IMG/VR virus record: IMGVR_UViG_3300010935_000165
Coordinates: 1-36,787 of that record
Reading direction: 5' to 3' (one strand)
From: a virus
DNA: 36,787 bases
Both the position numbers and the translations under genes were made by a program. The first letter of the stretch is position 1; every line of letters starts with the position of its first letter. This document shows positions 26,452 through 36,123 of the stretch, in pieces. Below the pieces are notes generated by a model, which was given only the letters and a program-made list of their open reading frames with translations, was not told the origin of the DNA and searched no databases.

Positions 26452-26747
26452 TTGGTTGGTGGTGTTAAGTCTTTTATACATCTATCAAGTATTCTTTCTG
26501 TAAGCTCTGATACAGGTGCGGTATTATACTCATTATTGCCCCAAGTAGAACTCATTGATTTATTCAGTATAGAAGTCTTCTCAATACACTTACTATAGAC
26601 AATAGACATTTGAACCTCTTTTGACACGCACATGTACTTTGCTGCTCCAAAGTGTAGGTCAGTAAGAATCTCGCCTGTTTTACATACTGGCTGTGCGCAA
26701 CCACTCAGCAGAAGAACTGCCGATAATGTAAAGATTAGTCTATTCAT
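26448..26747 (-). CDS. small lipoprotein
   Basis: 99 aa. N-terminal type II signal peptide: MNRLIFTLSAVLLLSGCAQP with lipobox LSGC, so Cys17 would be lipidated. Mature part has four further Cys, may form two disulfides, and is otherwise of unknown fold. Such phage lipoproteins act in superinfection exclusion or as outer-membrane spanins; the context (accessory, not lysis) favours host modification. Coupled to both neighbours by ATGA. Confidence 0.75.
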   Translation of the reverse strand: MNRLIFTLSAVLLLSGCAQPVCKTGEILTDLHFGAAKYMCVSKEVQMSIVYSKCIEKTSILNKSMSSTWGNNEYNTAPVSELTERILDRCIKDLTPPTK

Positions 26748-27109
26748 TTGTTATCAGGGTTAAAAACTGTGTTCAAAAGTAAGTGCTCTTCTGCTAATTC
26801 CTTCTCACCGTTCATCATGTAATACAAAATAGCCTCTGGGCACGACATGTGAACCATCCCGCTATTTCTCTCCCCTTTCATTCGATATGCCCTCTCATCC
26901 CCAAAAAACTCCAGTGCATGCGTACAGCATATGTCTTCTAGGATATGGTAAGCTGGAAAACCATGAATCGCTTCCATGTCTTCATCCATTAAGCAATATC
27001 CGTCGTTTTCACTTCCTTTCATTACGTATCCCCAATATTTTTTTGAAGGCACATCACACCCCCATTCTTGCAACTGCTTACATGCTGATTCTGATAAGCG
27101 GAAATCCAT
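26744..27109 (-). CDS. Cys-rich small phage protein, unknown
   Basis: 121 aa (MDFRLSESACKQLQEWGCDVPSKKYWGYVMKG...). Six Cys and an acidic centre, no signal peptide. First gene of the accessory operon, 31 nt downstream of the -10 of promoter 27140-27168, with TTTAAC 8 nt before the ATG. It is not recognised, although a metal-binding role is possible from the Cys pattern. Confidence 0.65.
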   Translation of the reverse strand: MDFRLSESACKQLQEWGCDVPSKKYWGYVMKGSENDGYCLMDEDMEAIHGFPAYHILEDICCTHALEFFGDERAYRMKGERNSGMVHMSCPEAILYYMMNGEKELAEEHLLLNTVFNPDNK

Positions 27110-27117
27110 ATTAAACT

Positions 27118-27127
27118 GTTAAATTCT
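27118..27127 (-). promoter_or_regulatory. translation-initiation leader motif
   Basis: AGAATTTAAC on the minus strand, 8 nt before the ATG at 27109. The same 10-mer occurs before the starts at 29128, 32500, 33056 and 33306; none of these has a Shine-Dalgarno sequence at the usual distance. Confidence 0.5.
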
Positions 27128-27139
27128 GTTTGCGCCCAT

Positions 27140-27168
27140 ATCTTACTCGATCTATTTTTATTTTGCAA
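27140..27168 (-). promoter_or_regulatory. early-type promoter of the accessory operon
   Basis: TTGCAA, 17-bp spacer, TAAGAT, then ATG-GGCG on the minus strand. Belongs to the same class as the promoters at 612-640, 659-687 and 27498-27526. Confidence 0.65.
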
Positions 27169-27196
27169 GAGCATTTACCAATGTAAAACTAAGCAC

Positions 27197-27222
27197 AAAA
27201 AAACCGCTCTTTTATTGAGCGG
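27197..27222 (-). terminator. rho-independent terminator, leftward (third of three)
   Basis: Six-pair stem CCGCTC/GAGCGG with a 7-nt loop, followed on the minus strand by seven T residues. Closest to the promoter at 27140-27168, which it isolates from transcription from the right. Confidence 0.85.
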
Positions 27223-27273
27223 ATTATTTGCAAAGACCTAAGTGCGAGGAGGGGATTCAAACTTCCTCCTCAC
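27197..27273 (-). ncRNA. candidate small RNA 3
   Basis: A 9-bp hairpin (27244-27252 with 27265-27273, one G-U) with a 12-nt loop lies upstream of the terminator at 27197-27222. A -10-like TAATAT is at 27280-27285 but no convincing -35 is seen, so this element may be read from promoter 2. Same architecture as the two candidates to its right. Confidence 0.35.
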
Positions 27274-27320
27274 TAGAACATATTACAGGAGATATTTATT
27301 TGAGGAAAGGAAAAATAATT

Positions 27321-27347
27321 AAAAAAACACTCGGCTAACCGAGTGTT
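27321..27347 (-). terminator. rho-independent terminator, leftward (second of three)
   Basis: Perfect 9-bp stem AACACTCGG/CCGAGTGTT with a 4-nt loop; on the minus strand seven T residues run from the stem end. Confidence 0.85.
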
Positions 27348-27380
27348 AATCTTTGGAAAAAAATCGTGTTTGGTTTTTTC
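27321..27380 (-). ncRNA. candidate small RNA 2
   Basis: About 60 nt between promoter 27387-27415 and the terminator 27321-27347. Its 5' part forms a hairpin of 8-9 bp (GGAAAAAA at 27355-27362 with TTTTTTCC at 27374-27381) with an 11-nt loop. No open frame of any length is present. Confidence 0.4.
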
Positions 27381-27386
27381 CAGGGT

Positions 27387-27415
27387 ACTTTACAAAAAGT
27401 TTAGTAGGTTGGCAA
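27387..27415 (-). promoter_or_regulatory. putative promoter of small RNA 2
   Basis: TTGCCA (5 of 6 to TTGACA), exactly 17 bp, TAAAGT (4 of 6). Weaker than the others and lacks GGCG downstream. Confidence 0.4.
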
Positions 27416-27426
27416 GGTGAAATATT

Positions 27427-27452
27427 AAAAAACACCGAGCCGAAGCTAGATG
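27427..27452 (-). terminator. rho-independent terminator, leftward (first of three)
   Basis: Stem CATCTAGC/GCTCGGTG (one G-U, one mismatch) closed by the very stable TTCG tetraloop and followed by six T on the minus strand. Confidence 0.8.
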
Positions 27453-27491
27453 TTTTAGTAGAATGTCGAAAAAAACTATCAGGAATTTTTC
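27427..27491 (-). ncRNA. candidate small RNA 1
   Basis: About 65 nt from the promoter at 27498-27526 to the terminator at 27427-27452. The 5' hairpin pairs CGAAAAA (27467-27473) with TTTTTCG (27486-27492), loop 12 nt. The promoter is clear, no frame of useful length lies inside, and the terminator is strong, so this is the best supported of the three. Confidence 0.5.
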
Positions 27492-27497
27492 GCCTCA

Positions 27498-27526
27498 ATC
27501 TTACCACTCGTTTCTTTTTATTGCAA
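27498..27526 (-). promoter_or_regulatory. early-type promoter of small RNA 1
   Basis: TTGCAA, 17-bp spacer, TAAGAT, then TGA-GGCG on the minus strand. It overlaps the last codons and stop of the 94-aa gene at 27518-27802. Confidence 0.6.
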
Positions 27527-27802
27527 GAGTAAGATAATTACAGTCGCAATATGTGCTCCTGACAGAAGGTAAAATCCAATCTTATAAATAGGGTAATCAT
27601 GGCACCTTGACAGCAATTCTTTTGTGTAGTCCTGCTCAGCTTTCAATTCTTTCCTAAGTTCAGCAATTTGACTCTTCAGGCTTTTTGGCTTATGAACAAT
27701 TTTTATTTTCATGCAAACAGTTGATGATGAGTCAGCCTTCTTGTCTGTATAATCAGCATGAATGGAAGGCTCTGTTCCGTCTGAATTTAAAAGAAGTCCC
27801 AT
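27518..27802 (-). CDS. small coiled-coil protein with C-terminal membrane anchor
   Basis: 94 aa. Residues 38-65 form a coiled coil (PKSLKSQIAELRKELKAEQDYTKELLSR) and 72-94 a transmembrane helix at the very C-terminus (YKIGFYLLSGAHIATVIILLLQ). TTAAC is 10 nt before the ATG. Tail-anchored, not recognised. Confidence 0.65.
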   Translation of the reverse strand: MGLLLNSDGTEPSIHADYTDKKADSSSTVCMKIKIVHKPKSLKSQIAELRKELKAEQDYTKELLSRCHDYPIYKIGFYLLSGAHIATVIILLLQ

Positions 27803-27830
27803 AAAGGGTGTTGTTAAGTTGTTTTTTTGT

Positions 27831-27902
27831 TGAGAATGGCAGGATTTGAACCTGCGACCTTCGCCTTAGGGGGGCGCTGCTCTACCACTGAACTACATTC
27901 CA
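27831..27902 (-). tRNA. tRNA-Arg(CCU)-like
   Basis: 72 nt on the minus strand. D arm GTTC-AGTGGTA-GAGC, a five-pair T stem GCAGG/CCTGC with loop TTCAAAT and TA at positions 8-9 are all canonical. The anticodon stem GCGCC/GGCGA has four clean pairs, and the loop CCCCTAA gives anticodon CCT with A37 A38. Position 33, normally U, is C here, and acceptor position 1 is not paired, so it may be an inactive or atypical tRNA; an error in the run of six C is also possible. CCA is not encoded. AGG decoding would help a phage in a host with few such tRNAs. Confidence 0.75.
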
Positions 27903-27911
27903 ATACTTTAC

Positions 27912-27936
27912 AAGGGGGAGAATTTCACTCCCCCTT
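27912..27936. other. hairpin upstream of the tRNA
   Basis: Perfect 9-bp stem AAGGGGGAG/CTCCCCCTT with a 7-nt loop, 9 bp before the tRNA 5' end in the direction of transcription. No T-tract on either side. Could be a processing or transcription-pausing element. Confidence 0.6.
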
Positions 27937-27965
27937 ACCACACACACAGGATTGATCCTGCACAG

Positions 27966-28139
27966 TCACTTGCCACTGCGAGCTACAAGGAGATGACCGT
28001 CCTTACGCTTACTCTTTGTTATTTCGTGTGGTTTTCCGATAAAGAACGATGCAAGTCCGTCTGTTATTACAGGTTTTATACCCCCAGCTGCAGGCTGTTT
28101 TACCTCCCTCTTGCATGAGTTGGAGTGGGCGTTCTCAAT
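27966..28139 (-). CDS. 57-codon open frame without ordinary start
   Basis: The frame reads ENAHSNSCKREVKQPAAGG, IKPVITDGLASFFIGKPHEI, TKSKRKDGHLLVARSGK, with codon use like neighbouring genes and no hydrophobic or low-complexity part. It has no ATG, GTG or TTG; ATT at 28139 overlaps the TGA of the 38-aa frame. It is +1 to that frame exactly at the stop (AAT-TGA-G), so the two could be one 94-aa product by frameshift at TGA, or be broken by a sequence error, or use ATT. No family recognised. Confidence 0.35.
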   Translation of the reverse strand: MENAHSNSCKREVKQPAAGGIKPVITDGLASFFIGKPHEITKSKRKDGHLLVARSGK

Positions 28140-28251
28140 TCTTTATCGGGCATTTCCCCAGTCTAGGCGTGTATATGCCTAACACTTTGGGTTTTAATTG
28201 CTCTTTGTATTCTCTTTTGCGTACTACAGTAGGCAGAAGAGGATTTGTCAT
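28135..28251 (-). CDS. 38-aa frame, chain member
   Basis: MTNPLLPTVVRKREYKEQLK, PKVLGIYTPRLGKCPIKN. ATG at 28251 overlaps the stop of the 22-aa frame as ATGA. Basic, no motif. Probably the N-terminal part of the product continued at 27966-28139. Confidence 0.35.
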   Translation of the reverse strand: MTNPLLPTVVRKREYKEQLKPKVLGIYTPRLGKCPIKN

Positions 28252-28316
28252 GCAATCTTTCCCGCAGGGTAGCGAGAGGTTTTTAATTTCAGAAACTTTC
28301 GCTCTTTTTCGCTCAC
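28248..28316 (-). CDS. 22-aa frame with GTG start in a stem
   Basis: MSEKERKFLKLKTSRYPAGK-IA. The GTG lies inside the 3' arm of a 15-bp inverted repeat (28302-28368), so translation would be hindered when the repeat folds. Coupled to the 38-aa frame by ATGA. Confidence 0.25.
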   Translation of the reverse strand: MSEKERKFLKLKTSRYPAGKIA

Positions 28317-28368
28317 AAGTAGTCTGAAGAATTTAACAAGACAAACTATTCTCGTGAGCGAAAAGGAG
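28302..28368. repeat. 15-bp inverted repeat with 37-nt loop
   Basis: 28302-28316 pairs with 28354-28368 at 14 of 15 positions plus one T-G. There is no T-tract after it on either strand, so it is not a plain terminator. It separates the tiny frames at 28375-28446 and 28248-28316 and contains a GTG start. Confidence 0.7.
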
Positions 28369-28374
28369 AGGGGG

Positions 28375-28446
28375 TTACTTAACCCCTACTTTCCGATAGC
28401 CACCAACAACCGTGGGAATCTTACTCTCTTTCTTGTTTTGAGTCAA
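28375..28446 (-). CDS. 23-aa frame, TTG start
   Basis: MTQNKKESKIPTVVGGYRKV-GVK, from a TTG that overlaps the TGA of the 64-aa gene (TTGA). Shares IPTVV with the PTVV of the 38-aa frame. Very short; only the overlap and the chain of similar frames support it. Confidence 0.25.
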   Translation of the reverse strand: MTQNKKESKIPTVVGGYRKVGVK

Positions 28447-28637
28447 TCTTGTTTCTGTATCTTAATTTGATCGAGTGTGATTTCTTGCTGCTTTGAACAA
28501 TGTCCTGTGTTTATTATTCGACAGTTGAACACTTGGCATTCCTTGCAAATATTCTCTGCAATATCTTCCGCGATGTCAATATCACTCTCTGGCAAGTGCA
28601 TTGCGTTTATCATGTGGTTTAGTGCTTCTTTTTGCAT
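28443..28637 (-). CDS. small Cys-containing protein of unknown function
   Basis: 64 aa with Cys at CKEC, C and C (residues 31-47), a possible zinc site (ENICKECQVFNCRIINTGHC). TTTAAT leader 9 nt before the ATG. Not recognised. Confidence 0.6.
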   Translation of the reverse strand: MQKEALNHMINAMHLPESDIDIAEDIAENICKECQVFNCRIINTGHCSKQQEITLDQIKIQKQD

Positions 28638-28647
28638 AATTTAAAGA

Positions 28648-28887
28648 TTAAAGATCGTTTTTTCCGAATTTGAACTTCTGATTCAAAACTCTCGCCTGAT
28701 TAAAGTGCCCATCTAGCTTCTTTGCATTTTCTGGAAACCTTAGTCTAAGTATTATTCTTCTCCCCGTAGACAAAGACATTCTCTCGGCTTGCTGTATATT
28801 CTCCCATGCTCTTACTGGAGGTAAAATAGCCCCTGTTTTAATGTATCTCTGGAGCTTTTTATGACTACAAACGTGGTAAACTATCAT
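28648..28887 (-). CDS. small basic protein of unknown function
   Basis: 79 aa, starts MIVYHVCSHKKLQRYIKTGA and is basic throughout (pattern I.YHVCSHKKL..Y). A family of short phage proteins with this opening exists; no function is known to me. Coupled region of the early operon. Confidence 0.65.
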   Translation of the reverse strand: MIVYHVCSHKKLQRYIKTGAILPPVRAWENIQQAERMSLSTGRRIILRLRFPENAKKLDGHFNQARVLNQKFKFGKNDL

Positions 28888-28897
28888 AATTTAAATA

Positions 28898-29128
28898 TTA
28901 AATATCGTTCTGTTTTTCAAGGTGTGCCAAAAGCTTCATCCAGTGCTCTTTGTCACAATCCCAACCATAATTATCACATTCTTTTATGTCTCTAATAATA
29001 GTACCCATACATCGCTTTGACAGCTTTTGAGTCATAAGGTAACCACATACAGAGCTTGAAACATACGAAGTTCTTCCAAGTGCATACCTTACTGCACATA
29101 CATATATAATTCCTAAGTCTTCTTGCAT
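28898..29128 (-). CDS. small phage protein of unknown function
   Basis: 76 aa. The core YVCAVRYALGRTSYVSSSVCGYLM recurs in small phage proteins annotated as hypothetical. AAGAATTTAAC leads the gene 8 nt before the ATG and its promoter is at 29158-29186. Confidence 0.65.
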   Translation of the reverse strand: MQEDLGIIYVCAVRYALGRTSYVSSSVCGYLMTQKLSKRCMGTIIRDIKECDNYGWDCDKEHWMKLLAHLEKQNDI

Positions 29129-29136
29129 AATGTAAA

Positions 29137-29147
29137 GTTAAATTCTT
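29137..29147 (-). promoter_or_regulatory. translation-initiation leader motif
   Basis: AAGAATTTAAC, 8 nt before the ATG at 29128; same element as at 27118-27127. Confidence 0.5.
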
Positions 29148-29157
29148 GTTCTCGCAT

Positions 29158-29186
29158 ATCCTACTCTTTATTTATTCGTTTCACAA
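29158..29186 (-). promoter_or_regulatory. internal early promoter
   Basis: TTGTGA, 17-bp spacer, TAGGAT, then ATG-CGAG on the minus strand. Lies across the stop of the gene at 29168-29599. Confidence 0.5.
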
Positions 29187-32527: not shown

Positions 32528-32579
32528 CATCTATTCTCGCGTTGTTTAAATCGTCGAGGTATTCGTCTTCGTCTATTTC
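32528..32579 (-). repeat. 52-bp direct repeat, copy 1
   Basis: Matches 32990-33041 at 50 of 52 positions; both copies encode the DEIDEDEYLDDL-like segment of the acidic mini-protein. Because they are spaced by one gene, a local duplication is likely. Confidence 0.85.
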
Positions 32580-32602
32580 ATCCTATTCGTTGTATTCCGT
32601 AC

Positions 32603-32962
32603 TCATTTTTCCTCCTGAGGAAACCCTGCATCTATTGAAAATTTTCTCATAATTTGAGTCTCTTCAACTTCTTTCAATCTTCCAGATGGCTCCCACCTCC
32701 AGTAATCATTACAATAAAATCCATCCTTATCTTTAAATACTGGATGCACTTTCCTGAACCCCACTTTGTTAATTTCTGAAATTATACAAAGATGGTCATC
32801 TCTCCCTTCTGTCATTGAGTCCACATGAACTCTTGCAATACAGTAACTACCTATATTGAAATTCTTCTTTTTTATAACCACTGACTCCTCATCACACCCA
32901 GTAAGTCTTCCTATGCGCTGCAATACTTCCTTGCCATGATCGCTAAAATTTAAATTATTCAT
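32603..32962 (-). CDS. unknown early protein
   Basis: 119 aa (MNNLNFSDHGKEVLQRIGRLTGCDEESVVIKKKNF...). Last residues FPQEEK give an incidental AGGAGG ahead of the next mini-frame. Its ATG is overlapped by the stop of the acidic mini-gene. Not recognised. Confidence 0.65.
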   Translation of the reverse strand: MNNLNFSDHGKEVLQRIGRLTGCDEESVVIKKKNFNIGSYCIARVHVDSMTEGRDDHLCIISEINKVGFRKVHPVFKDKDGFYCNDYWRWEPSGRLKEVEETQIMRKFSIDAGFPQEEK

Positions 32963-33056
32963 AATCTTTTAAATAAAATTCTCTATCCTCATCTATTCTC
33001 GCGTTTATTAAATCGTCGAGGTATTCGTCTTCGTCTATTTCGTCTTCATCATCCAT
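32955..33056 (-). CDS. 33-aa acidic protein
   Basis: MDDEDEIDEDEYLDDLINAR, IDEDREFYLKDYE, about half Asp/Glu. Leader AAGAATTTAAC 8 nt before ATG and its stop overlaps the next ATG by eight bases, so it looks translated. No known fold. Acidic mini-proteins in phages sometimes mimic DNA, but this is only composition. Confidence 0.6.
   Translation of the reverse strand: MDDEDEIDEDEYLDDLINARIDEDREFYLKDYE
32990..33041 (-). repeat. 52-bp direct repeat, copy 2
   Basis: Part of the intact acidic mini-gene; see 32528-32579. Confidence 0.85.
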
Positions 33057-33064
33057 AGTAATCT

Positions 33065-33074
33065 GTTAAATTCT
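33065..33074 (-). promoter_or_regulatory. translation-initiation leader motif
   Basis: AGAATTTAAC, 8 nt before the ATG at 33056. Confidence 0.5.
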
Positions 33075-33087
33075 TTTTTACTTAATC

Positions 33088-33306
33088 TTATTGAGTAACT
33101 ATTACACCAATTGCTCGCATAAACTCATCAATATTCTCTTTGCCAATCTTTGCTTTATAAAGATATGCTTCACGAAGATCTGCTCCAGAAAGATTTGCTC
33201 CAGAAAGACTCACACCTTTCTCTATTGCATCAAAAACAGCCTCTCTAATATTTCCTTTTTCACTCTTGAAAATAATATTTCCGTTTATATCTTTAATTGT
33301 AGTCAT
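33088..33306 (-). CDS. pentapeptide-repeat protein
   Basis: 72 aa. Residues 32-49 contain consecutive A(D/N)LXX repeats (LSGANLSGADLREAYL), three to four turns of a right-handed beta-helix, after a helical start. Short for this family. Known pentapeptide proteins can mimic DNA; here too few repeats remain to judge. Leader AAGAATTTAAC, 10 nt before ATG. Confidence 0.75.
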   Translation of the reverse strand: MTTIKDINGNIIFKSEKGNIREAVFDAIEKGVSLSGANLSGADLREAYLYKAKIGKENIDEFMRAIGVIVTQ

Positions 33307-36094: not shown

Positions 36095-36123
36095 ATAATA
36101 CAGATTATTTGAAAGAATAGCAA
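36095..36123 (-). promoter_or_regulatory. promoter of methyltransferase operon
   Basis: TTGCTA, 17-bp spacer, TATTAT, GTT-CGGG on the minus strand. It lies across the end of the gene at 36126-36455. Confidence 0.55.

Follow-up and report, generated by a model that had tools for sequence, protein, structure and literature searches.

The gap between two minus-strand genes of an uncultured phage holds three intrinsic terminators in a row, and the question it raises is whether these belong to three promoter-hairpin-terminator units encoding tandem small RNAs, as an initial annotation proposed, or to an ordinary operon boundary. The window, meaning the whole stretch of DNA analysed, is a 36,787-bp virus record of a tailed phage. 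Structural genes (tail proteins, endolysin, head protein and terminase) occupy 1.7–24.5 kb, followed at 24.5–36.7 kb by small genes, mostly without assigned function and nearly all on the minus strand. Among named records, those that match the terminase best include a Saccharibacteria (TM7) phage and uncultured spring phages, all of them distant. The gap (27110–27517, 408 bp) separates genes 27518–27802 and 26744–27109; the features in and around it are listed in the table.

Features of the gap 27110–27517 and its surroundings, in the order of minus-strand transcription
Feature	Position	Strand	Description
P0	28418–28446	minus	TTGACT-N17-TAAGAT; same class as P1; upstream of the structured stretch and the tRNA
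Structured ORF-free stretch	27906–28411	minus	about 500 nt, between P0 and the tRNA; possible RNA gene
tRNA-Arg (CCT)	27829–27903	minus	tRNA search and Rfam
P1	27498–27526	minus	cTTGCAA-N17-TAAGAT; −35 overlaps the stop codon of gene 27518–27802
hp1	27467–27492	minus	CGAAAAA-N12-TTTTTCG; 7 bp, loop of 12; begins at the predicted +1 of P1
T1	27453–27432, U-tail to 27427	minus	ACATCTAGCTTCGGCTCGGTGT; UUCG loop; −6.4 kcal/mol
Candidate sRNA1	27427–27492	minus	about 66 nt; P1 to T1
P2	27387–27415	minus	cTTGCCA-N17-TAAAGT; weak class member, spacing as in P1
hp2	27355–27381	minus	GGAAAAAA-N11-TTTTTTCC; 8–9 bp, loop of 11; begins at the predicted +1 of P2
T2	27347–27326 (element 27321–27347)	minus	9 bp, loop TTAG, U7; −12.6 kcal/mol
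Candidate sRNA2	27320–27381	minus	about 62 nt; P2 to T2; z −5.5
hp3	27244–27273	minus	GTGAGGAGG-N12-CCTCCTCGC; 9 bp, loop of 12; no promoter
T3	27222–27204 (element 27197–27222)	minus	6 G/C-rich bp, loop of 7, U7; −9.1 kcal/mol
P3	27140–27168	minus	cTTGCAA-N17-TAAGAT; drives gene 26744–27109

Translation starts in this phage are preceded by an A/T-rich leader of the TTTAAC type instead of a Shine-Dalgarno motif. A 25-nt leader of the AACGATCTTTAATCTTTAAATTATG type is repeated at 28635–28659, 28885–28909 and 29126–29150, before three consecutive small genes whose translation leaders are without Shine-Dalgarno motifs, and GACGAAGACGAATACCTCGACGATTTAA is present in duplicate close to where two adjacent genes begin (32531–32640 and 32963–33130). 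The sole convincing plus-strand gene, at 714–1319, encodes an acidic protein of 201 amino acids (coding signal 0.23 bits per codon) without a Pfam match, and a strong minus-strand terminator (1359–1334) adjoins it.

All three terminators of the gap lie on the minus strand, in the orientation of nearly all genes, and the coordinates initially given for the array proved correct. In 600 dinucleotide shuffles of the gap, none, one and two terminators occurred in 463, 125 and 12 cases, respectively, and three in not a single case; the observation itself is confirmed. T1, a C(UUCG)G tetraloop stem followed by a U-run, was passed over by a simple terminator scan owing to one internal mismatch; with its AAAA:UUUU extension it reaches −9.1 kcal/mol.

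Insulation alone is the main rival to a reading of the array as two small-RNA genes. Redundant tandem terminators would then end the transcript of the tRNA and gene 27518–27802 and shield P3, and any short transcripts from P1 and P2 would be functionless by-products. The array is indeed situated between gene 27518–27802 and P3, with T3 ending 29 nt upstream of the −35 element of P3, and each terminator is oriented to stop transcription in the main direction. Tandem terminator pairs are also present in several terminase relatives (L018, L039 and L063), and T1 also closes the transcript of the tRNA and gene 27518–27802, so little weight attaches to the earlier argument that one terminator would be enough for an insulator. 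However, the 1.48 Mb of strand examined, from related contigs as well as the window, contained no triple cluster besides this one, and an ordinary boundary leaves unexplained both P1, a clear class promoter before T1 with no gene between them, and the matching hairpins hp1 and hp2 at the +1 positions. We regard a simple operon boundary as a serious possibility, although one with clearly less than an even chance.

The promoters carry part of this argument. The motif TTGCAA-N17-TAAGAT occurs exactly twice, in P1 and P3, each time preceded by the same three bases (15 bases shared). A looser form (TTG-N20-TA(A/G)GAT and similar) yields five sensible minus-strand sites, at 36123, 29186, 28446, 27526 and 27168, as well as two sites inside long genes and one on the plus strand; the sites at 36123, 29186 and 27168 are directly upstream of genes (29128 and 36066 among those genes). 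Because P3 is an exact copy and looser-form sites directly precede genes, P1, judged by its sequence, belongs to a genuine class of phage promoters, as had been claimed for it. P2 matches the sigma-70 consensus at 9 of 12 positions, a quality found 37 times against 43 expected in 16.8 kb. Its position is exactly right for unit 2 even though the score alone is at chance level. The assignment of promoters to two units is upheld for P1, and for P2 in placement but not in strength. P0 is placed at the end of gene 28443–28637, and the gap contains no exact site of the Bacteroidota-type promoter TAnnTTTG.

The hairpins with loops of 11–12 nt that had been described ahead of each terminator were found in all three units. 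The stems of hp1 and hp2 are A/U-rich and start about 6 nt past the −10 hexamer, which is the expected first base of the transcript; a short linker follows, and then the terminator. Both hairpins are weak (about −5 to −6 kcal/mol), and taken singly hp1, hp2 and hp3 outperform shuffles by a moderate margin only (P = 0.07, 0.02 and 0.03). The fold z-scores of the three units are −3.1, −5.5 and −4.3, and most of the lowest-scoring 100-nt windows of the minus strand at 24–36.8 kb fall in 27.2–28.4 kb. Where promoters of the class drive genes (P3 and those at 29158 and 36095), the ATG is preceded by a AATTTAAC leader with no structure at all. P1 and P2 differ from these promoters in having a 5' hairpin and no start codon downstream: neither sRNA1 nor sRNA2 contains an ATG, GTG or TTG ahead of the terminator stem.

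For a search, we defined this full plan as a promoter-like site followed after 4–8 nt by the start of a hairpin with 7 bp or more and, within 30 nt, by a terminator. On both strands of the window it was found only at P1 and P2, and two weak matches were all that the same search returned from other viral contigs, 834 kb in total. None of 500 shuffles of the region contained it, a count that is no true P-value since the plan was defined after the pattern had been seen; the contrast is nonetheless large. Nothing that would be expected in the sequence of an independent small-RNA gene is missing from units 1 and 2. Two other origins of these features were considered and rejected. A hidden peptide in the open frame 27346–27507 would have its start codon upstream of the +1 of P1, and the frame has no coding signal (0.03 bits per codon, where several accepted small genes are also near zero). 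A tandem duplication as the origin of units 1 and 2 is not supported either, as their alignment was no better than that of shuffles (P = 0.13).

The same hairpins could instead function as DNA, with GAAAAA-N12/13-TTTTTC inverted repeats at the +1 of P1 and P2 serving as operators of a phage repressor. This repeat pattern occurs three times in the window, against 0.3 expected, and two of the copies are those at P1 and P2. These two copies differ, however, in arm spacing (24 and 25 bp in total) and in the outermost pair, which is switched from C-G to G-C on both sides; moreover, the repeat is missing at the other promoters of the class (P3, 29158 and 36095). A +1 operator is possible but less consistent with these features, and we consider it highly improbable.

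The third unit is of another kind. Its hairpin hp3 has an AGGAGG:CCTCCT stem of about −16 kcal/mol and is located between T2 and T3, a stretch without any promoter of the class, so that unit 3 has none. Because of this and the short distance from T3 to P3, T3 is probably best read as an insulator of P3. The proposed series of three promoter-hairpin-terminator units therefore holds for units 1 and 2, and the third appears as an insulator with an extra hairpin. A T-arm-like sequence at hp3, GTTTGAATCC, was considered as a tRNA remnant and rejected, as neither ARAGORN nor Rfam matched a tRNA there.

Our preferred reading, to which we assign an even chance, takes units 1 and 2 as a series of two short genes for non-coding RNAs, each transcribed independently. 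Host RNA polymerase would start at P1 (near 27492) and at P2 (near 27381), giving RNAs of about 66 and 62 nt with the 5' end in an A/U hairpin and a 3' end formed by the terminator hairpin and its U-tail. With both ends protected in this way, the RNAs could accumulate, while T3, together with hp3, would prevent polymerases arriving from upstream from entering P3, which serves the 26744–27109 operon. That sRNA1 and sRNA2 are made and stable we infer from their anatomy. The array is accordingly a good candidate for phage small RNAs, with two of the suggested tandem RNAs in series (promoter, +1 hairpin, no start codon and terminator) and not three.

It is conceivable, but rather doubtful, that the loops and linkers of the two RNAs have a regulatory role during infection, through base pairing or the binding of protein. 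Comparison of these loops and linkers with the start regions of the phage genes gave no convincing target: the best P was 0.02 in seven tests, none was significant after correction, and the best pairing, near gene 30543, is weak. Among the Rfam covariance models, only that of the tRNA passed its gathering threshold, and the best others were far below theirs. Searches via the terminase, the head protein, its upstream 590-aa protein, the flanking proteins, the tRNA and the promoter-hairpin pattern found no related sequence of the gap region. The terminase relatives had nothing else of the region in common, matches to the promoter-hairpin pattern elsewhere had no terminator behind them, and no comparable terminator array or Rfam RNA was found beside the tRNA of six terminase relatives.

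Upstream of the gap, the minus strand carries in order P0, the structured stretch without a plausible gene, tRNA-Arg (CCT) and gene 27518–27802. The stretch has a z-score of −5.7 on the minus strand and, for a slightly longer segment, −6.8 on the plus strand. An imperfect inverted repeat at 28288–28382, forming a long hairpin with 32-nt arms, accounts for part of this signal and is the most structured 100-nt window of the minus strand at 24–36.8 kb (z −7.9); without it the remaining 372 nt have z-scores of −3.7 (minus) and −5.4 (plus). These folding scores make 27906–28411, which matches no Rfam family, a candidate large structured RNA beside the tRNA with its own class promoter, P0. A wider proposal, which we put forward as speculative and improbable, is that 27.1–28.5 kb forms a hub given over to RNA genes that belong to one regulon. 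P0 would give rise to the RNA of about 500 nt, of an undescribed class, and tRNA-Arg (CCT), and P1 and P2 to two small RNAs of shared two-hairpin design, all acting together in host takeover.

Outside model systems, to our knowledge, few small RNAs of phages have been described, and hardly any in phages whose hosts are uncultured. The two units in series are visibly unlike the gene-driving promoters of the same phage in design and present RNA mapping with a small and concrete target, and the locus suggests that compact phages may set aside a stretch for RNA genes beside a tRNA.

The OOP RNA of phage lambda is an independently transcribed phage small RNA that is short and has its own promoter and an intrinsic terminator. 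The candidate units resemble it in these three respects, and differ in standing two in series and in having no known antisense target here. A promoter followed within about 50–100 nt by one or more intrinsic terminators is also the arrangement of the lambda pR'-tR' leader and of the AlpA-controlled alp promoter (PMC7969949). With Q and AlpA as precedents, a phage factor might load at P1 or P2 and take polymerase past T1–T3 into the next operon, the short RNAs being the default terminated products. The close succession of promoter and terminators immediately before the block that leads to the terminase would suit such antitermination. It is nevertheless very unlikely, because P3, of the same class as P1, lies beyond T1–T3 and can supply the operon with no need for readthrough, a promoter placement unlike that in the known systems; nor was an antiterminator family recognised among the proteins scanned, most of which gave no match at all. 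ROOL and GOLLD large RNAs are situated near phage tRNA islands (PMC12286853). The stretch 27906–28411 is similarly a large, structured and ORF-free one beside a phage tRNA, but matches the covariance model of neither, even at E-values up to 10. In Listeria phage CKA15, highly transcribed unannotated regions are found near tRNA genes (PMC12282133), and together with ROOL and GOLLD these regions provide a precedent for an RNA-rich stretch beside a tRNA. Like the CKA15 regions, the units described here from sequence alone are short ORF-free stretches by phage tRNA genes with strong sigma-70-like promoters; whereas the CKA15 transcripts are without canonical intrinsic terminators, each unit here ends in one.
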